Source: Candidatus Hydrogenedentota bacterium (GTDB lineage: Bacteria > Hydrogenedentota > Hydrogenedentia > Hydrogenedentales > SLHB01). Taken from it: a stretch of DNA of 15,281 nucleotides. The stretch is from positions 5,540 to 20,820 of the forward strand of contig JAKJDA010000007.1 of the NCBI GenBank assembly GCA_022706165.1, read 5' to 3'. This document shows positions 5,301 through 14,598 of this stretch, in pieces. The notes below the pieces were generated by a model, which did no database searches, was not told where the DNA came from, and worked only from the letters and a program-made list of their open reading frames with translations. Positions within the stretch are counted from its first letter, which is position 1. The number at the start of each line of letters is the position of its first letter. The translations under genes and the position numbers were made by a program.

Positions 5301-6626
5301 TCATTTTGGGCTGTACTTGTCAAACACCAAGCGATCCAACCGTGCACGCACCGGCTCCATCGTTAGCTGCGCGACGATTTCGTCCGCGAAGCCATAGGTC
5401 AAGATGCCGCGTGCGGTTTCGGGGCTCATCCCGCGCGTCTGGAAATAATACACCAGCTCCTTCGGCGGCTGGCCGATGGTCGCGCCGTGCGTGCATTTCA
5501 CGTCGTCGGCGAAAATCTCCAGCAAGGGTTTCGTGTCGACCGTCGCCTTGTCCGATAGCAGCAGATTGCGGTTGAGCTGCTGCGAACTCGTCTTCTGGGC
5601 TCCGCGCTGCACCCGGATGCCGCCGCTGAACACGCCGGCGCTCGCATCGGCGAGAATGCCCTTGTAGCCAATCCAACTGGTGCAATGCGGCTTGGCATGA
5701 TCGATGCCGGTCGCGTTGTCGGCCAGCATCGAACCGTCGGTCATGTAGAGCCCGTTCAGCGAACAGTCCGCGCCCTCGCCGTCGAGCAATGCCTTGTCCT
5801 CGTTGCGCACAATACGTCCGCCAGCGGTAAACACATAGGACGTGTAGCGGCTGTTCCGAGCCTGGCGCACGCGTGCCGTGGCCAGATGGAAGGCATTCGG
5901 CGCTTCATCGACGAACTTGACGCGATAGAGCGCGGCGTTCTCCCCGATCGAGGTCTCGGTTACGGCGTTGGCGAAATAGGCGGCGTCGTTCACGGCCGAC
6001 ACGCAGCTCTCGATCAGCTTCAGTTCGGCGGATTCGTCCAAGACGATCAAATTGCGCGGGTTCGCCGTCTTGCCCGCCGCCGCCGAAGTCGCTACAAACA
6101 CAAGATGCACCGGCGCTTCGAGGGCGACGCCCTTCGGCGCGTAGACAAACGCGCCGTCTTGAAACAATGCGGTGTTCAGAGCGGTAAAGACGGTCGACAC
6201 GCCATTCCCCGCGTAGTGACCCAGGTGTTCTTTTGCGACAGGATGTTCGTCGCGGATCGCCTCGGCCAGACTTCCGGCGTACATGCCCTTCGGCAGCGAG
6301 ACCGTGCGCGACAACGCGGCGTTGTAACGGCCGTCTACAAAGACCAATTCCGCCCAAGCTGCTTCGTGATACAAGAACGGGGCAATGTCGCCGTTGCCAA
6401 TCGATGGCGCGCTTGCCGCAACGGGCGCGAACGGCATCTTCAGGATGGGCGCGATGTTGGTGAAGCGCCACTCTTCCTGCCGTCGATCCGGGAACGGCAA
6501 CTCGGCAAAACGTTCCGCACCGCTCCTGCGCAACGCCCCCGCCCACTCTGGCGCTTGTGTCTGCGCCAGGGCATTAATGGCCGTGAGATACGCTTGTTTT
6601 TGCTCGGGATTCTTCACTTCGGTCAT
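5301..6626 (-). CDS. sufD: SufD, Fe-S cluster scaffold subunit
   Basis: SufD pairs with SufB and the SufC ATPase in the SufBC2D scaffold on which nascent iron-sulfur clusters are built. The protein has 441 residues from ATG 6624-6626. That start has GGAG seven bases upstream and gives a family-like N-terminus. The open frame runs on to 6701, but that extension is the flanking repeat. Visible features include a conserved N-terminal helix region (QEEWRFTNI, 50-58), the beta-helix core, and the C-terminal segment with SSQQLNRNLLLS, LEIFADDVKCTHGAT and FQTRGMS. In CTHGAT (C378-T379-H380), H380 corresponds to the histidine implicated in cluster assembly in E. coli SufD. The gene is separated from sufC by a 135-base gap holding a long inverted repeat, and from sufS by a second repeat element. 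Confidence 0.96.
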   Translation of the reverse strand: MTEVKNPEQKQAYLTAINALAQTQAPEWAGALRRSGAERFAELPFPDRRQEEWRFTNIAPILKMPFAPVAASAPSIGNGDIAPFLYHEAAWAELVFVDGRYNAALSRTVSLPKGMYAGSLAEAIRDEHPVAKEHLGHYAGNGVSTVFTALNTALFQDGAFVYAPKGVALEAPVHLVFVATSAAAGKTANPRNLIVLDESAELKLIESCVSAVNDAAYFANAVTETSIGENAALYRVKFVDEAPNAFHLATARVRQARNSRYTSYVFTAGGRIVRNEDKALLDGEGADCSLNGLYMTDGSMLADNATGIDHAKPHCTSWIGYKGILADASAGVFSGGIRVQRGAQKTSSQQLNRNLLLSDKATVDTKPLLEIFADDVKCTHGATIGQPPKELVYYFQTRGMSPETARGILTYGFADEIVAQLTMEPVRARLDRLVFDKYSPK

Positions 6627-6675
6627 GTATAAACTCCAAGAAATCATGGAGAAGAATACAACAACAGATTCTTCC

Positions 6676-6755
6676 CTCTGCGGCCTTTGCGTTCTCTGCA
6701 TCTCTGCGTTGAGATTTTTGAACGCAGAGTCGCAGAGCGCGCTAAGGTCGCAGAG
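6676..6755. repeat. Long inverted repeat (35-bp arms) between sufC and sufD
   Basis: The left arm 6676-6710 and right arm 6721-6755 are imperfect reverse complements matching at 29 of 35 positions, around a 10-base spacer, GAGATTTTTG. The arms are built of roughly 9-base units such as CTCTGCGNC and AACGCAGAG. The element lies 6 bases beyond the sufC stop and about 50 bases before the sufD start, so the operon mRNA would carry a very stable hairpin here. The first 17 bases of the left arm match 5214-5230 in the sufD-sufS gap at 16 of 17 positions. Confidence 0.85.
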
Positions 6756-6761
6756 AAGAAG

Positions 6762-7517
6762 TCAAACTGCCGCGACTTCTTCTTTGATCCAATCGTAGCC
6801 CTTTTCTTCAAGTTCGAGGGCCAGATCCTTCCCGCCGGACTTGACGATCCGTCCTTTGTACAGCACGTGGACAAAATCCGGCACGATATAGCTCAGCAAC
6901 CGCTGATAGTGCGTCACCATCACGACGGCGCGGTTTTCCGAGCGCAACTTGTTCACGCCTTCGGACACGATGCGCAGCGCGTCGATGTCGAGCCCGGAAT
7001 CCGTCTCGTCGAGGATCGCCAGTTTCGGTTCCAGCACGGCCATCTGCAAGATCTCGTTGCGCTTCTTCTCGCCGCCGGAAAAACCCTCATTCACGGGGCG
7101 ATCCGCGAATTTCCTGTCTATTTTGACGAAGTCCATCTTCTCTTCAAGAAACTCGCGGAACTCCATTGCGTCGAGTTCGTCGAGGCCATTGCTCTTGCGA
7201 ATCTCATTCAGCGCCGCCTGCAGGAAATAGGCATTCGAAATGCCCGGAATCTCCACGGGATACTGAAACGCCAGAAACAACCCCAACCGCGCGCGCTCTT
7301 CCGCGGGCAGTTCGAGCAGGTCGCGGCCCAAAAACGACACGCTGCCGTCGGTCACGTCATACGCCTCGTTGCCGGCCAGCACGCCCGCAAGCGTGCTCTT
7401 GCCCGAACCGTTCGGCCCCATGATGGCGTGCGTCTCGCCCGCGTTCACGGTGAGGTTGACGCCGCGCAGGATTTCGTTTCCTTCGACGGTCGCATGCAAG
7501 TTCTTGATTTCAAGCAT
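6762..7517 (-). CDS. sufC: SufC, ABC-type ATPase of the SUF scaffold
   Basis: SufC hydrolyses ATP to drive conformational change of the cytoplasmic SufBC2D scaffold; it is an ABC ATPase without a membrane partner. The protein has 251 residues, the usual length. The Walker A motif GPNGSGKST is at residues 34-42, the ABC signature FSGGEKKR at 146-153, Walker B LAILDE ends at D170-E171, and the switch histidine is H203 in VTHYQR. The sequence [12 protein letters not shown] is characteristic of SufC. I chose ATG 7515-7517 because it shares one base with the sufB stop (TAATG) and gives the canonical MLEIKNLHA start. The frame open to 7607 is a shadow inside sufB. The long inverted repeat follows immediately downstream of its stop. 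Confidence 0.97.
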
Positions 7518-9055
7518 TAGCCGACACTCCCTTCCAGACTGACTCCGAGCAACTTGGTGGCTTCGACGGCAAACTCCATCGGCAGGTGCTCGAACACTTC
7601 TTTGCAAAAACCGTTAATCACCATCGATATCGCGTCTTCTTGGCTGATGCCGCGTTGCTTGCAGTAGAACAATTGGTCTTCGCTGATCTTTGAGGTCGAG
7701 GCCTCGTGTTCTACATGCGCCGTCGGGTTTTTCACCTCGATATACGGGAACGTGTGCGCGCCGCATTGATCGCCGATGAGGAGCGAATCGCATTGCGTGT
7801 AGTTGCGCGCGTTGTGGGCCTTCGGCATGACCTTGATCTGGCCGCGGTAGCTGTTGTTGCCGTTGCGCGCAGAGATGGTTTTCGAGATCACCGTGCTGCG
7901 CGTGTTCGCGCCGAGATGGATCATCTTCGTGCCGGTGTCGGCCTGTTGGTAATTCGTGCTCAACGCCACCGAATAAAATTCGCCAATCGAGTTCTCGCCC
8001 TGCAGGAGGCAGCCGGGGTATTTCCAGGTGATCGCGGAACCCGTCTCCACCTGCGTCCACGAGATATGTGAATTGCGCCCGGCGCACTTGCCGCGCTTCG
8101 TCACGAAATTGTAGATGCCGCCCTTGCCGTCCCTATCGCCCGCATACCAGTTCTGCACGGTCGAGTAGTTGATCGTCGCATCGTCCAGCGCGACCAACTC
8201 GACGACCGCCGCGTGCAATTGATTCTCGTCGCGTTGCGGCGCCGTGCAGCCTTCAAGGTAGTTCACCGAAGCGCCCTCCGCGGCGACGATGAGCGTGCGC
8301 TCGAACTGACCGGTCTCCGCAGCGTTGATGCGGAAATACGTGGACAAATCCATCGGGCACTTTACGCCCTTCGGCACGAAACAGAACGATCCGTCGCTGA
8401 AGACAGCCGAGTTCAACGCCGCGAAAAAATTGTCGGCATACGGCACCACCGATCCCAGATGCTCGCGCACCAAGTCCGGATGTTCCTTCACGGCTTCGGA
8501 GAAGGAACAGAAGATAATCCCCTTTTTCGCAAGGATGTCCTTGTGGGTCGTGGCAACGGACACGCTGTCGAACACCGCGTCGACCGCCACGCCCGACAAC
8601 CGTTTTTGTTCCTCCAGCGGAATGCCCAGTTTGTCGAACGTCTGGAGCAGTTTTTGGTCGACGTCATCGAGACTGCTCAGCGGCGCGGCCTTGCGCTTCG
8701 GCGCAGCGTAGTAGCGCTGATGCTGGTAGTCGATGGCGGGATAGTGGACATTCGCCCACGTCGGTTCGGTCATCGTCTGCCAATGCCGGAACGCCTTCAA
8801 CCGCCACTCGAGCAACCACTCCGGTTCTTCCTTTTTGGCAGAAATTAGCCGAACCGTGTCCTCCGTCAAACCGCGCTCGATAACGTCCTGCTCAATCTCC
8901 GTCACCCAACCGTGCTTGTACTGCTGATTGGCAAGCTCCTCGAGTTCGCGCGTGCTCTGCTCCACGCGCGTTCCGGAGTACGTGTCGTTTCCCGAAGGCG
9001 GCTTTTGGGCGCGCGCATCGGCGTTCTCTTGATTTGAACCCGCAACGGACGGCAT
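7517..9055 (-). CDS. sufB: SufB, Fe-S cluster scaffold subunit
   Basis: SufB is the main scaffold subunit of SufBC2D: it receives sulfur and holds the nascent cluster. The protein has 512 residues, slightly long because of a polar, low-complexity N-terminal stretch of about 35 residues before the conserved part. Family blocks are [21 protein letters not shown] (within 201-221), [21 protein letters not shown] (within 225-244), [20 protein letters not shown] (within 301-320), and the C-terminal [18 protein letters not shown]422 in that last block matches the essential cysteine of E. coli SufB, and E449 lies in HVEHEAST. The ATG start has GAGG six bases upstream. It is the first gene of the operon, coupled to sufC by TAATG. 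A run of eight G on the plus strand (9077-9084) lies in its leader. No Rrf2-type regulator gene is adjacent. Confidence 0.97.
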
Positions 9056-9604: not shown

Positions 9605-10180
9605 ATGGGAACGCATACCGTCCATTTTCGCTGTCATCACTGCGGCCACTGTTGCACCGATGTGGTGTGTCTGCCCACCCCGTGGGACGTCATCCGCATC
9701 GTCAAGCAGACCGGCCAAAACCCCTATGCCTTTTTGGCGTTTTTGACTCCGGAAGATGTCACCGGCGTCAACAAGAGCGACCCGACGTGGCTCGATTGCC
9801 AGGGGAAGCGCTATATCATGGCATTGCGGCGCGGTAAAAAGGGATGCTACTTTTTGCACCCGAAGACGCGATTTTGCACCGCCTACGAGGCGCGCCCCAT
9901 CTTGTGCCGCTTGTATCCGTTCAAGCTGCACGAAACGCGCGCGGGCGCATTCAAGGCGTTCAGTCTTCATACGGATGTGGGCTGTCCCCGGCATCGGGAC
10001 GGTCTCTACGAGACAGGGCCGTTGTATGCGTTGTATACGGCGGATTCCGCGCACCAGGAAGACTATGCGCGGTTGGTCGAGGTCTTCAACCGGCGGCGCT
10101 ATCCAGACAAACGCCCCGAGCATTTCGTGGAAATGTTCGTTACAGGCTTTTCCGATAGCATGACGCCCGCGAAAAGCTGA
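9605..10180 (+). CDS. YkgJ-type CxxCxxCC cysteine-cluster protein
   Basis: The 191-residue soluble protein belongs to the zinc/iron-chelating CxxCxxCC family (Pfam PF03692, from memory). The N-terminal motif is C10-x2-C13-x2-C16-C17. Partner cysteines are C81 (KKGCYFL), C91 and C101 in FCTAYEARPILCRLYPF, the typical second half of the family, and C127. These residues are expected to bind a metal or iron-sulfur cluster. The biochemical role of the family is poorly known. I chose ATG 9605 because it sits directly before the first cysteine motif, as is usual. No clear Shine-Dalgarno is visible upstream. The suf operon lies upstream in the opposite direction and would be a logical source of clusters, but this link is only suggestive. 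It is followed by an A+T-rich region and a separate promoter, so it is probably monocistronic. Confidence 0.88.
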   Translation: MGTHTVHFRCHHCGHCCTDVVCLPTPWDVIRIVKQTGQNPYAFLAFLTPEDVTGVNKSDPTWLDCQGKRYIMALRRGKKGCYFLHPKTRFCTAYEARPILCRLYPFKLHETRAGAFKAFSLHTDVGCPRHRDGLYETGPLYALYTADSAHQEDYARLVEVFNRRRYPDKRPEHFVEMFVTGFSDSMTPAKS

Positions 10181-10203
10181 ATACATCCGTATTGTATAGG
10201 CCG

Positions 10204-10256
10204 CAAAAAATAAATTATTTCAATTATTGCTATTATTTCATTACATATAAGCGCTT
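10204..10256 (+). promoter_or_regulatory. A+T-rich UP-like element
   Basis: About 50 bases made almost entirely of A and T lie immediately upstream of the promoter at 10263, in sharp contrast with the G+C-rich surroundings. It contains an A6 tract and phased A/T runs such as AAATAAATTATTT. The position, roughly -40 to -95 relative to the predicted start, fits an UP element that binds the RNA polymerase alpha subunit, as seen at rRNA and other very strong promoters. A nucleoid-protein binding site is an alternative. Confidence 0.5.
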
Positions 10257-10262
10257 TTGGGG

Positions 10263-10291
10263 TTGACTTGAGCGCGAGGTCGTGGTATAGT
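10263..10291 (+). promoter_or_regulatory. Strong sigma70-like promoter for the structured RNA / M23 gene
   Basis: TTGACT (10263-10268) and TATAGT (10286-10291) each match the consensus hexamer at 5 of 6 positions and are exactly 17 bases apart. An A+T-rich stretch lies upstream. The predicted start is about 10297-10299, at the base of the first hairpin of the structured RNA. This is the best promoter in the window. Confidence 0.8.
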
Positions 10292-10294
10292 CCG

Positions 10295-10562
10295 GCGTCT
10301 TGGGCGGGAACCCAAGACGCGATGCAGGTATAAAGACAAGAGCACCTGTCGTTCTTCCAACGTGGAAGGAAAGCATGTCCAAGGTGCGGCTTTGGATGTG
10401 CCGACAAAGGAGCGCCATCGGGGAACTTCTGGTATAGAAGTTTGTGCCTCGAGGGGGAGTTCGGGAACCTGTCGTATAGGAAGGGCAAGCGCCGTTCCGC
10501 GCGGATGGGTCCGAAAGAAGTCTATCCGGAGCCCGGATAGTTTCCCCGCGAGGAGCGGCGCT
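10295..10562 (+). ncRNA. Unassigned structured RNA (leader of the M23 gene or independent small RNA)
   Basis: The promoter just upstream would make an RNA that starts in a perfect 10-bp hairpin (10295-10304/10311-10320, loop CGGGAA). More helices follow: CAGGT/ACCTG (10325-10329/10344-10348); TTCTTCCA/TGGAAGGA (10352-10359/10363-10370); GGTGC/GCGCC enclosing CTTTG/CAAAG across a GG/GA internal loop (10383-10416); TCGGGG/CCTCGA (10418-10423/10447-10452) around AACTTCT/AGAAGTT (10424-10430/10436-10442). Finally a 17-position helix with one mismatch (10488-10504/10546-10562) encloses CTATCCGG/CCGGATAG (10522-10529/10533-10540). GGGAAC-N6-TATAG occurs twice, 42 nt apart (10421 and 10463). The last helix ends 19 bases before the M23 start codon. 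I see no hallmark of RNase P, tmRNA, SRP RNA, 6S RNA or a riboswitch I know. It may be a cis leader or a separate abundant RNA; no good terminator is visible. Confidence 0.6.
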
Positions 10563-10581
10563 CCTGGAGAGACCGCCTACG

Positions 10582-11601
10582 ATGAAGAAATGGACCGTCA
10601 TGCTCGTCCCCCAAGGCCAAGGGGTTACGCGAACGCTCCACTTGTACTCGTTTCAACTGTGGCTATTCATTGTCATTCTCCTCGGGCTGGCGTTTACGTC
10701 GGCGTTTTTCTTCCAATGGTTTCAAGCGGCGCAGACGCATGCGCGCATTCTGGAAAAGAGCAATCACGAATTGGCTCGGGCGCGCTCCGAAGCGCCTGCG
10801 ACAACGACGGGTCTCACCGACGAAGAACGCGCGGAAATCGAGCGCCGGGTCCGGGCCGAGTACGAAGAGCAGAATGCGGTGGTTGCTCGCGAATTGAGCG
10901 AATTGCGCGATTTGGAGGATAGCATTCGCCGGGTGCAGAAGCTTCCGCCCAAGATCAAGCATCCGTACGGCGTCATGATGAACATGACTCCCGGGAAAGA
11001 GAACAACGGCAAGGGCGGTCCGTTGGACGGCGGCGGTCCGTTGCCGGCGCAGACGGCATCGGACGATATGATGGGGCCGCCGCAGCTTATCTACGGTCTT
11101 TCCCGGCCCCCGGCGGATCTCATCATTCAGGAAATCAATCTGCGCACGGAGAGTTTGCGCGAGTTGTTGACCGCGATGGACGCCAAGCGCGATCGGATCG
11201 AACGCACGCCGCTTGGCTGGCCCGTTCTCAGCCGCCAACGCCAGATCAGTTCGGGGTTCGGCCTGCGTTTCGATCCGTTCACGCATCGGCTTTCGCGGCA
11301 TGAAGGCCTCGATATTCGCGCGCCGTACGGGACCAAGATTTATGCCGTCGCGCGCGGCGTCGTCGTCACGTCCGCCTACGACGGCGACTACGGCAATGTT
11401 GTGGTTATCCGTCACGGAGACGGATTCGAGACGTTGTACGGTCACATGAGCGAGCGTCTTGCCAAGCCGGGGCAGGAAGTGGGGCGCGGCGACGTGATCG
11501 GCTTGGTGGGAAGCACGGGCCGCAGCACCGGAAATCACTGTCACTACGAAGTGCGCCTCAGCGGCGTCGCGGTTGATCCGGAAAATTATCTGGGCAACTA
11601 A
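10582..11601 (+). CDS. Membrane-anchored M23 (LytM-type) peptidoglycan peptidase
   Basis: A zinc endopeptidase expected to cut peptidoglycan cross-links in the periplasm. The protein has 339 residues: a short basic cytoplasmic N-terminus, one membrane segment (about 22-46), a charged coiled-coil-like region (about 52-120), a Gly/Pro-rich linker (about 135-165), and the M23 domain (about 212-338). The zinc ligands are visible as H240 and D244 (RHEGLD) and H321 within HCH (H319-H321); H288 lies in LYGHMS. All expected residues are present, so it looks active rather than a degenerate LytM activator. The start is ATG 10582 with GGAGAG ten bases upstream. The structured RNA lies just ahead and may control it. 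It is followed by a bactofilin gene, a pairing known from cell-shape loci such as csd1/ccmA in Helicobacter. Confidence 0.93.
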   Translation: MKKWTVMLVPQGQGVTRTLHLYSFQLWLFIVILLGLAFTSAFFFQWFQAAQTHARILEKSNHELARARSEAPATTTGLTDEERAEIERRVRAEYEEQNAVVARELSELRDLEDSIRRVQKLPPKIKHPYGVMMNMTPGKENNGKGGPLDGGGPLPAQTASDDMMGPPQLIYGLSRPPADLIIQEINLRTESLRELLTAMDAKRDRIERTPLGWPVLSRQRQISSGFGLRFDPFTHRLSRHEGLDIRAPYGTKIYAVARGVVVTSAYDGDYGNVVVIRHGDGFETLYGHMSERLAKPGQEVGRGDVIGLVGSTGRSTGNHCHYEVRLSGVAVDPENYLGN

Positions 11602-11651
11602 GGCCTTACTAGCGCCGGGCGGTCCATCTAAGGTATCATGCCCCTCGACGT

Positions 11652-11675
11652 CGCCCCCAATCCGGATTGGGGGCG
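11652..11675. promoter_or_regulatory. Perfect 24-bp palindrome upstream of the bactofilin gene
   Basis: Half-site CGCCCCCAATCC is followed directly by its exact reverse complement. As RNA it folds into a 10-bp stem with a CCGG loop. It lies 50 bases after the M23 stop and about 21 bases before the bactofilin start, ahead of the AGAGGA Shine-Dalgarno. There is no U-tract after it, so it is a poor intrinsic terminator. An operator for a dimeric regulator or an mRNA processing/stability hairpin are the alternatives. Confidence 0.6.
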
Positions 11676-11696
11676 CTTCATTAGAGGAAACGCGCC

Positions 11697-12110
11697 ATGC
11701 TCGATTCAGGACGAAAACGAAATTACAGCGAGACGAAAGTCGTCACCATTATCGGTCAGGGCACGACCGTGGTCGGCGAAGTCAAATCCACCGGCACGAT
11801 CCGCGTGGAAGGATCCGTTTCCGGCTGCATCCACTGCGATGACTCCATCGTGATCCAGGAAACCGGCAAGGTCAAGGCCGATCTTGTCGCCGGCCAGATC
11901 GCCATTAGCGGCGAGGTGGAGGGCAACGTTTTCGCCCATGAACGTCTCGAGATATCGTCCAAAGGCAAGCTTATCGGAGATATCACCATCACCGCCCCGC
12001 GTCTCAGCATTGACGAGGGCGTCGTTTTCGAGGGCCGTTGCACCATGAAGGCGCCCGGCCAAGTCAAGCCGTCCGTTTCGGGCGCGCCTGCTCCATCCGC
12101 CGCCGAATAG
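11697..12110 (+). CDS. Bactofilin family cytoskeletal protein
   Basis: Bactofilins polymerise without nucleotide into filaments, often on the inner face of the cytoplasmic membrane, and localise peptidoglycan enzymes or control cell shape. The protein has 137 residues, a usual size. A short polar tail (1-15) precedes a right-handed beta-helix core (about 16-118). The core is made of repeated hydrophobic/glycine turns such as TIRVEGSVSG, IVIQETGKVKADL, IAISGEVEGNV, LEISSKGKLIGDI and LSIDEGVVFEGR (Pfam PF04519 pattern). A Pro/Ala/Ser-rich tail ends the protein. I chose ATG 11697 for its AGAGGA site eight bases upstream; the frame opens further upstream only through the palindrome. The adjacent M23 gene supports a role in wall remodelling. 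Confidence 0.92.
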   Translation: MLDSGRKRNYSETKVVTIIGQGTTVVGEVKSTGTIRVEGSVSGCIHCDDSIVIQETGKVKADLVAGQIAISGEVEGNVFAHERLEISSKGKLIGDITITAPRLSIDEGVVFEGRCTMKAPGQVKPSVSGAPAPSAAE

Positions 12111-12168: not shown

Positions 12169-14598
12169 ATGGCATCGCACTCTTCCCCAGATCGTCGGCG
12201 TCCCGTGGCCCCGTTGTTGCCGCGCAAGGCGCGTCTGGCTGCATGGAAATCGGGCGCCAAGCCGGAATTGCTCGCTCCGGCGGGGCGCATCGAGACCTTC
12301 TTCGCCGCGCTTGCCGCAGGCGCGGACGCGGTGTACGTTGGCGCGCAAAATTTCAATGCACGGTTGCGGGCAGCCAATTTCTCGATGGACGATATCGCGC
12401 GCATGACGGCGTTTGCGCATGCGCAAGGGCGGCGGCTGTACGTGACGCTCAACACGCTCGTCCGCCAAGATGAGTTGCCCGAGCTTGTGCGGACGCTCGA
12501 CGCCTTGCGCCGCATCCAACCGGACGCGCTGATCGTTCAGGACCTCGGCGTCTACCGCCTTGCGCGAAAACTGGCTCCGGAAATGCCGCTGCATGCGTCG
12601 ACGCAGATGACCATTCATAATCTCGACGGCGCGTTGCAGGCGCAACGGATGGGGTTGGAACGCGTCATCCTCGCGCGCGAGCTCACCTTGGACGAAATCC
12701 GGAACATCCGCGCGTCGTGCACCATCGAACTCGAAACCTTCGTTCACGGGGCGCACTGCTACTCGATTTCGGGTCAGTGTCTGTTCAGCAGCTACGCGCA
12801 CGGCAGAAGCGCAAACCGCGGGCGCTGCATGCAGCCATGCCGGCGCGCTTTCGCGACAGGAAACGGGGAGGCGGGAAACGAGCAGGCGCTTTTTTCCATG
12901 CGCGACTTGAATGCCGGTCCGGTTTTGGAGCAACTCATTCCCTGCGGCATCCGCTCCTTCAAAATCGAAGGCCGCCTGAAGCCCGCGGAGACCATCGCGC
13001 AGACGGTTCGGGCGTATCGCCTCTTGGTTGACGCATATCCGAGAATCACCGCGGAGATCATCGACGAAGCAAAGCGCTGTTTCGATCGCGCGGTGGGGCG
13101 TGAACGAAGCGCCGGTTTCTATGTGTCCGCGGAGCCGGCGCATATCCTGGGCGACCCCGCCGAGACGCAGAGCGGCCGGGCGCTGGGCGAAGCGCTGCCT
13201 GGCAAGCATGGACGGTTTGGGCTGATTCCGAGCGCGCCCGTGAAAGCGGGAGACCGTTTGCGCGTGCAGATAAGGCCGAACGAGGCCCCGCGCGGATTCG
13301 TCGTGCGCGATCTGCGTCTCGAAGACCGCGTCATCAAGCGATGCCACGCGGGCCAGCGCGTGGAGCTCGAAGCCCCGTTTGTCGTTCCGGCGGGCTCTCG
13401 GGTGATTAAGGCGGCGGATGCGGACGCAGTCGAACGCGGCGCCGCGCGGCTGTTCGACCGGCAGTGGGCCGAGGCAACGGCGCGGTCCAAGACGGCGTTT
13501 GCCGCGTGGCTGAGCCCCGGTGGGCGCAACGACCTTGCGCTGAAGGTCACCGCGGGCGCCGAGTCATTTCGCGTGAATCAACGGCAAACGTGGGCCGGCG
13601 CCATCCCGTTACAGGACGCATTGCGCGTGTTGCGCACGGGCAGCGAGGCGTTTGCGGTCCGCCTCGACGTTGGGGTGGGGCCGGAGATGGACCCGGAAGT
13701 GCGCGTTGGCATGACCGAATGGGAGGCGTTTCGCGATCGTGCATTGGCGCAGTTGACGGATGCGCTGGATCGGCAGCGAGACGCAGTTTTGGAGGAGGTC
13801 TGCCAGGCGGCGAACGAGGCGCCTGCGGCCGAAACGCGCACCATGATACGGCTGAACGCGTTCGCGGACGTGGCTTCGCTGGGCGACGAGGGGGCGGGGT
13901 GCGATGTGGTCCTGCCATTGCGCGACGTGGAGAATCACGAGTTCCGGCGTTTTGCGCGCACGTCCAGCCATCGCGAACGGCTTGTGTTGGCGCTGCCGAC
14001 GTTTCAGTTTACGACGGATGATCGCGCGCATGCCGCCGAGCGGATCCGCCAGGCGCTCGCGCTGGGTCTGCGTCGGTTCGAGGCGTCGAACCTGGCGCAT
14101 TTTCAGCTCTTGCATGCAACCGGACGCCGCAATCTGTTCGTGATGACCGCGCCGGGCATTGGGTGTCTCAATGCGGCGTGTCACGCGCAACTGCGCGAAC
14201 TTGGCGCGGATGTCGTGACGTACAGCATCGAAGGCGACGCCGAAGGGCTTGCGGGGCTTCTTCGATGCGCGCCCCCGGCGCAGACGGCCGTGTGCGTGTA
14301 CGGGCACGCGCCGTTGTTTCAATCGCGCGTTCCGGCGCCGCCCGACGGCGAATACCGGCTCCAGACGCCTCGCTTGCGCGTGCGGGTCGAGCGTCGCGAA
14401 GGCATCGTCACCGTGACCCCCGCACAGCCGTTCCACCTGCGCAAGCACGTCTCCGGCTTGCGCGCGCAAGGCGTGTACGCGCTGGTATACGATCTAACGC
14501 TCGACCCCGATCCGCTTCGCGCCATGCGCCGCGCGCTGGCCGCCGAGGATCCCGAAGCGGCCGCGTCCACCTTCAATTTCGAGCGGCATCTCGAGTGA
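12169..14598 (+). CDS. Long U32-family protein (RlhA/YhbU-like, with C-terminal extension)
   Basis: The 809-residue protein starts with the U32 domain: KPELLAPAGRIETFFAALAAGADAVYVG (about 31-58), then a TIM-barrel-like region. The family signature ETFVHGAHCYSISGQCLFSS lies around 189-208. Four cysteines, C197, C204, C220 and C224 (the last two in RGRCMQPCRR), match the iron-sulfur ligands proposed for RlhA and TrhP. Those enzymes hydroxylate 23S rRNA C2501 and tRNA U34, respectively, using prephenate-derived chemistry. FKIEGRLKP (about 264-272) is another family mark. The C-terminal half of roughly 450 residues corresponds to the extension of long RlhA-type members (DUF3656 region). RNA hydroxylation is therefore the best guess, despite the historical name collagenase-like peptidase. 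The start ATG 12169 has an AGGAG site ten bases upstream and follows the bactofilin stop by 58 bases, so cotranscription is likely. Confidence 0.88.
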   Translation: MASHSSPDRRRPVAPLLPRKARLAAWKSGAKPELLAPAGRIETFFAALAAGADAVYVGAQNFNARLRAANFSMDDIARMTAFAHAQGRRLYVTLNTLVRQDELPELVRTLDALRRIQPDALIVQDLGVYRLARKLAPEMPLHASTQMTIHNLDGALQAQRMGLERVILARELTLDEIRNIRASCTIELETFVHGAHCYSISGQCLFSSYAHGRSANRGRCMQPCRRAFATGNGEAGNEQALFSMRDLNAGPVLEQLIPCGIRSFKIEGRLKPAETIAQTVRAYRLLVDAYPRITAEIIDEAKRCFDRAVGRERSAGFYVSAEPAHILGDPAETQSGRALGEALPGKHGRFGLIPSAPVKAGDRLRVQIRPNEAPRGFVVRDLRLEDRVIKRCHAGQRVELEAPFVVPAGSRVIKAADADAVERGAARLFDRQWAEATARSKTAFAAWLSPGGRNDLALKVTAGAESFRVNQRQTWAGAIPLQDALRVLRTGSEAFAVRLDVGVGPEMDPEVRVGMTEWEAFRDRALAQLTDALDRQRDAVLEEVCQAANEAPAAETRTMIRLNAFADVASLGDEGAGCDVVLPLRDVENHEFRRFARTSSHRERLVLALPTFQFTTDDRAHAAERIRQALALGLRRFEASNLAHFQLLHATGRRNLFVMTAPGIGCLNAACHAQLRELGADVVTYSIEGDAEGLAGLLRCAPPAQTAVCVYGHAPLFQSRVPAPPDGEYRLQTPRLRVRVERREGIVTVTPAQPFHLRKHVSGLRAQGVYALVYDLTLDPDPLRAMRRALAAEDPEAAASTFNFERHLE

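Follow-up and report, generated by a model that had tools for sequence, protein, structure and literature searches.

Cell shape in many phyla is set by pairs of an M23 peptidase and a bactofilin, and in many phyla adjoining genes for the two form putative lmdC-bacA operons (PMC10945521). The window, by which we mean the whole 15,281-nucleotide stretch of DNA analysed here, comes from a 3.48-Mb Candidatus Hydrogenedentota assembly that is 83% complete, and it holds the same gene pair at 10582-12110. The M23 peptidase gene (10582-11601, + strand; PF01551, E 1.1e-33), LmdC-like by arrangement, is followed by the bactofilin gene (11697-12110, + strand; PF04519, E 4.4e-26); a gene for a CxxCxxCC-domain protein (9605-10180) lies upstream of the leader, and a U32 peptidase gene (12169-14598) lies downstream of the bactofilin gene. 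The passages cited treat the lmdC-bacA operon in terms of proteins and gene order and do not mention a leader RNA. Wall peptidases elsewhere are under the control of c-di-AMP riboswitches (PMC9960051). Their target gene is of the same kind as that of the window leader, which differs from them in having no Rfam match and no visible shared core. The locus resembles bacterial structured 5′ leaders and cis-regulatory mRNA elements in its promoter, in a long conserved untranslated leader that ends at a ribosome-binding site and, among some relatives, in limited compensatory changes; it differs from them in that it comes without a known ligand, protein partner or switch, in a predicted fold that varies among genera and in the lack of an Rfam match. 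The stretch appears to be an mRNA leader, mostly constrained and unclassified, whose 5′ element occurs chiefly at the M23 locus.

The promoter is of the extended -10 type, TTGACT-17-TGGTATAGT (10263-10291, + strand), with TTGACT at 10263-10268, a 17-nt spacer, TG at 10283-10284 and TATAGT at 10286-10291; the same promoter type stands at the M23 locus of relatives. The initial annotation called it near-consensus, and it does match 10 of the 12 consensus bases in addition to the TG of the extended -10. Judged from promoter spacing, transcription would probably start at 10297-10299, yielding an untranslated leader of the M23 mRNA at 10298-10581 (+ strand; start +/-1-2 nt). This leader continues into the ribosome-binding site of the M23 gene, where GGAGAG at 10566-10571 (+ strand) is, by sequence, the likely Shine-Dalgarno. 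In our view the stretch is most plausibly an mRNA leader acting in cis rather than a free-standing RNA.

The same arrangement recurs among relatives. A protein match to the M23 peptidase was found in all 60 genomes, in four of them (G012, G035, G048 and G050) to the C-terminal domain alone. Reading upstream of the M23 gene excluded 7 of the 60 (G012, G035, G044, G046, G048, G050 and G057). The promoter pattern followed by an untranslated leader was present at 40 of the 50 loci read in the order and 6 more were anchored by eye, counts that are partly circular because leaders were picked by the promoter pattern within 420 nt. The remaining 4 of the 50 were one contig end and three loci without an assigned promoter. 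With two loci added later, one of them anchored by eye, the 46 leaders became 48, and 7 in all were anchored by eye (L008, L011, L016, L037, L038, L044 and L157). The counts omit L009 and L158, both at a contig end (L158 with 79 nt), and also L012, L048 and L052, to which no promoter was assigned; L159 duplicates L020 in genome and locus, and the doubtful 83-nt leader of L049 was retained. The search expression did not demand the TG of the extended -10, yet 36 of the 37 genus representatives (4 anchored by eye) carry it, the exception being L049. The leaders of the relatives also end at RBS-like sequence. What is found here is a conserved untranslated start of a predicted transcript that is fixed to one gene, as in a cis-regulatory leader. 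Upstream of the promoter, TATATTG or its complement is present in 5 of 16 family genera (for example in L003, L004, L007, L022 and L031) with 0.24 expected, and over all genera in 5 of 37 versus 0.9 expected. TATATTG may be a transcription-factor site; the window has a variant, TATTGT, at 10190-10195.

Between close relatives the leader sequence is constrained in most cases. Of 11 close pairs compared (10 within a genus and 1 between genera), 8 have a leader identity of 0.68-0.96; their shuffled leaders reach 0.44-0.49 and the four-fold sites of their genes 0.35-0.83. Identity just upstream of the promoter is 0.49-0.57 in five of the six measurable pairs among them and 0.71 in the sixth (g11). 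In g17 the leader (0.69) and the four-fold sites (0.67) are about equal. In the remaining 3 of the 11 pairs, of which two are within-genus, leader identities of 0.47-0.54 lie near background. The seven pairs that were viewed show conservation distributed along the leader, with one weaker fifth each (0.33-0.58), and the best-kept fifth is the one adjoining the start codon in four of the seven. A DNA search with the stretch at E<=0.001 over 60 genomes matched its own genome alone (0 of 59 others), and the matches listed for 25 family genomes at E<=10 held no foreign M23-leader match, the best foreign match being 31 nt with E 0.0017. The earlier proposal, that a wall hydrolase/bactofilin operon could have a cis-regulatory leader here, finds partial support: the promoter and untranslated leader recur at the M23 locus, most close pairs are constrained, the 5′ element is common to one other genus and the promoter joined to GGGAAC is found mostly at this locus; constraint is absent in 3 of 11 close pairs, and the regulation itself is what we infer.

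The 5′ element, GGGAACC...GATGCAGGTATAAAG (10300-10335, + strand), is homologous to the leaders of genus g3. It aligns with L028 at a score of 44 and with L033 at 42, versus shuffled means of 15.5 and 15.7 (0 of 300 shuffles each), while the third g3 member, L026, gives p=0.08; overall, 2 of 47 leaders reach p<0.01 in alignment with the window element. Beyond 10335 the window leader had no detectable homologue in the leader alignments or among the DNA matches listed. The motif GGGAAC-N6-TATAG had been noted as duplicated, which is correct: the second and third GGGAAC copies of the leader are of this form (10421-10437 and 10463-10479, both + strand), are 82% alike and lie 42 nt apart. With the additional GGGAAC at 10306 the window leader carries three copies (P=0.0004 by shuffles). 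The L004 leader also has three (P 0.0002), and these are two of the three longest leaders. Among 35 genus representatives, 11 have a GGGAAC that starts at position 11-19 past TATAGT, compared with a mean of 0.4 and a maximum of 2 in 200 shuffles; the other 24 lack an early GGGAAC. Fourteen genera have an early GGGAAC or GGGAAT, and in five of these, judged by the first member, TATA follows within ~30 nt, with 0.65 expected; the distance from GGGAAC to TATA is 17-20 nt in the window, g2, g5, g28 and g32. A tight pattern joining the promoter to GGGAAC gave 11 matches in 68 genomes, 9 of them at M23, with 0 for the reversed control, and a looser promoter pattern with GGGAA gave 13 matches in 25 genomes, 8 of them at M23, with 1 for the reversed control.

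A model of the 5′ element, R1, with the window in its training set, matches the window at 10303-10346 with 30.2 bits; the second and third GGGAAC copies are unmatched at E<=5. The genome search with R1 scored 150 of 728-2137 first-look candidates per genome. Among the candidates scored in 25 family genomes there were 10 matches of at least 28 bits, all at M23 leaders, so that among these candidates the element is not strewn through the family genomes; 15 of the 25 were without such a match. Eight of the matches are training sequences, and the other two, L033 and the G020 leader (confirmed ahead of MKRWTVM), equal the training members L028 and L003 in score and element sequence. Since all matches at this level are training sequences or identical to them, they do not demonstrate that R1 finds new elements. 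At least five weaker matches scored 21-23 bits. A further stretch, L047 353-392 on the minus strand, scored 23.7 bits with R1 and lies upstream of the M23 leader, outside the leader itself.

The main rival to a trans-acting reader of the RNA is that the conserved 5′ element acts as DNA, as an operator or a second promoter-like element immediately downstream of the main promoter, and that the leader RNA is itself functionless. We regard this as unlikely, though serious enough to weigh. It would account for the nearly constant spacing between the -10 box and GGGAAC, and the TATATTG that 5 of 16 family genera carry ahead of the promoter also points towards transcriptional control. The window and g3, moreover, keep the sequence of the element and not the hairpin around it: a 5-bp hairpin around GGGA is present in the L028 fold and absent from that of L033, and hence is not kept in g3. 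A DNA site fits less well with conservation that is spread along the leader in the seven viewed pairs and is often best next to the start codon, and with compensatory hairpin changes in g17 and g5/g11. In g17, from two sequences, 4 of 48 consensus pairs have changed on both sides and 0 are broken. In g5 and g11 taken together (four sequences), 3 of 12 pairs, in helices chosen after viewing the alignment, have changed on both sides, all of them in the hairpin before the ribosome site. In this set 91.7% of cells pair versus 33-56% when slid, and five shuffle measures were reached by 38, 23, 111, 162 and 23 of 500 shuffles.

The fold of the window leader is striking and, as a prediction, strong. 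The stretch 10293-10581 folds to -136 kcal/mol with a z of -6.31, far below its shuffles, of which 0 of 200 did as well; the multi-helix RNA of the initial annotation is thereby confirmed in part, as a prediction. Slightly shorter leader stretches give z of -5.4 to -5.5. When 102 other 284-nt stretches were taken from both strands of the window, with 40 shuffles for each, a z as low as the leader's -5.4 turned up at one place only, 6533-6816, which holds an inverted repeat. This imperfect 35-nt repeat (6676-6755; 83% complementary, 10-nt gap) lies between SufD-like and SufC-like genes, names read from the open reading frames; of the Suf genes, the profile scan covered the SufB-type one at 7517-9055. 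The tile around the repeat gives a fold z of -6.5 (+ strand) and -5.4 (- strand).

From its 5′ end the leader is predicted to form a hairpin of 10 perfect pairs with GGGAA in its loop (10295-10320, + strand; 10295-10304/10311-10320), a hairpin TCTTCCA/TGGAAGG (10353-10369, + strand), a 13-bp hairpin (10373-10401, + strand) and a domain (10408-10565, + strand) that is closed by the 9-bp helix 10408-10416/10557-10565 and contains hairpins at 10423-10443 and 10522-10540. Pair probability in the closing helix is 1.0 for eight of the nine pairs and 0.72 for the ninth. The first hairpin lies partly upstream of the likely start. Its pairing is perfect as originally described, but the first 2-4 bp would be lost with a start at 10297-10299, and its predicted stability depends on the start because those pairs precede the expected transcription start: the predicted probability is 0.999 from 10295, 0.44 from 10297 and 0.15 from 10298. 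The 8-bp hairpin 10522-10529/10533-10540 is part of the predicted fold. The long final helix said to enclose it (10488-10504/10546-10562) can form 16 of 17 pairs but has an ensemble probability of 0.0, because 10557-10565 prefers pairing with 10408-10416, and forcing it costs ~9 kcal/mol.

A conserved multi-helix fold is not a general trait of these leaders. Fold z averages -0.6 over 46 leaders, with 7 of the 46 below -2, and among 16 structure-threading tests on 8 pairs 3 keep pairs above chance (p<=0.014) and 13 are not significant. The leader could be real and the strong extra structure of the window no more than a lineage-specific growth of GC-rich hairpins without a function of their own, a reading that we again think improbable, to about the same degree as a DNA-level role. 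In its favor, the 290 nt after the -10 box in the window are the longest of all, with 110-190 nt in 37 of the 48 leaders; the window's z of -5.4 stands against the mean of -0.6; and its own leader is the sole M23-leader match among the matches listed for the 25 family genomes at E<=10. The three GGGAAC copies in the window and the three in L004, both beyond shuffled expectation, suggest instead a repeat that is used, and g17 keeps a long structured leader with compensatory changes, the extreme z occurring in one of its two members (-4.6 and -0.5).

That the RNA belongs to no recognisable family was confirmed for the covariance models of Rfam, none of which matched the window at gathering score or 10150-10700 at E<=10; at the loci of 15 of the 50 relatives there were 4 weak matches, 0 in a leader and 0 above gathering score. 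The model of the ydaO-yuaA c-di-AMP riboswitch, RF00379, was unmatched in the window and in the leaders of these 15 of 50 loci. A ligand-sensing riboswitch that controls the wall hydrolase, for instance in response to c-di-AMP, is attractive because of the target gene, given the c-di-AMP riboswitches that govern wall peptidases elsewhere (PMC9960051, as above), and a diadenylate cyclase is present in 25 of 30 genomes searched. The missing Rfam matches in the window and the 15 scanned relative leaders, a leader with no detected terminator, the lack of any aptamer-like core seen across genera and a genome of the window's own (G000, 83% complete) with no detected diadenylate cyclase make it very improbable. 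The diadenylate cyclase of G000 may be missing owing to the 83% completeness of the assembly. In a narrow search for prior work, no literature linking Hydrogenedentota to riboswitches was found.

Further down in probability comes a free-standing abundant RNA of 6S-like or another type that lies before M23 by chance, which had been offered as the other possibility for this stretch. The promoter and the stable fold would suit such an RNA; however, the leader runs into the ribosome site and a consensus scan found no + strand terminator in 10292-10581, before the M23 start codon, which leaves that reading unsupported, and the RBS-like ends of the relatives' leaders and the lack of an Rfam match also speak against it. 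Nor did that scan find the terminator of a transcription attenuator.

Related leaders hold little sign of coding. Substitutions are about even over the three codon phases, and six of the 7 sets lack an ORF of at least 8 codons that keeps start and stop (in two of them a stop column past the leader end is all that is shared), so the leader has probably been selected mostly as non-coding sequence. The window does contain a small ORF of 20 codons inside the leader (ATG 10375-10437, behind GGAAGGAAAGC), and in g17 two nested GTG-started frames keep their start and stop columns. A leader peptide acting by attenuation or translational coupling, in place of RNA structure, could draw on these two cases and is nonetheless the least credible reading, given the evenness over phases and the six sets without a shared start and stop; as a function of the leader, the small ORF was rejected outside g17.

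Two direct routes to translational control were examined across the leaders. Sequestration of the ribosome-binding site and pairing of the 5′ end with it were rejected as a common mechanism (mean z 0.05 and 0.17 over 37 leaders); the 5′-RBS complementarity of the window has a z of -2.2, and 3 of the other 36 leaders are also below -2. Leaders bound by CsrA/RsmA carry GGA-containing repeats. The window leader is like them in its GGA-containing repeats, and a CsrA gene is present in the genome; GGA is enriched (129 vs 104). The CsrA-type ANGGA, however, is not enriched over the genus representatives (46 vs 44.6 expected; window 6 vs 3.7 +/- 1.8), and GGGAAC differs from the CsrA consensus. CsrA, the obvious reader of the element, is a weak candidate.

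Recurrence of the promoter and leader, conservation of the leader and recurrence of GGGAAC at the M23 locus are shown at the level of sequence. To these we add that the leader would act in cis on its own mRNA, and, because no terminator was found and gating of the ribosome site is not shared, we favor a trans-acting reader of GGGAAC, with the hairpins as lineage-specific tuning. A trans-acting factor, most simply an RNA-binding protein, would recognise the GGGAAC element on the nascent transcript; lineage-specific hairpins might tune access, stability or translation, and the outcome would be a wall hydrolase and a bactofilin scaffold made in balanced amounts. In the genome of the window, the leader would have grown to ~285 nt of hairpins. 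This reading as a whole, a leader of the M23-bactofilin mRNA that is transcribed from an extended -10 promoter kept across the order, acts in cis and has its GGGAAC read by a trans-acting factor, is in our judgment evenly balanced between right and wrong. A bolder version is a possibility that we advance tentatively: an undescribed, order-wide class of Hydrogenedentota leader RNAs may set M23-bactofilin output through a new RNA-binding factor that reads GGGAAC, and the window would hold an enlarged form with three sites. Hydrogenedentota is a phylum studied mostly through assembled genomes, and an order-wide leader whose 5′ element occurs mainly at the M23 locus offers in it a defined target for asking whether such cell-shape genes are under post-transcriptional control.
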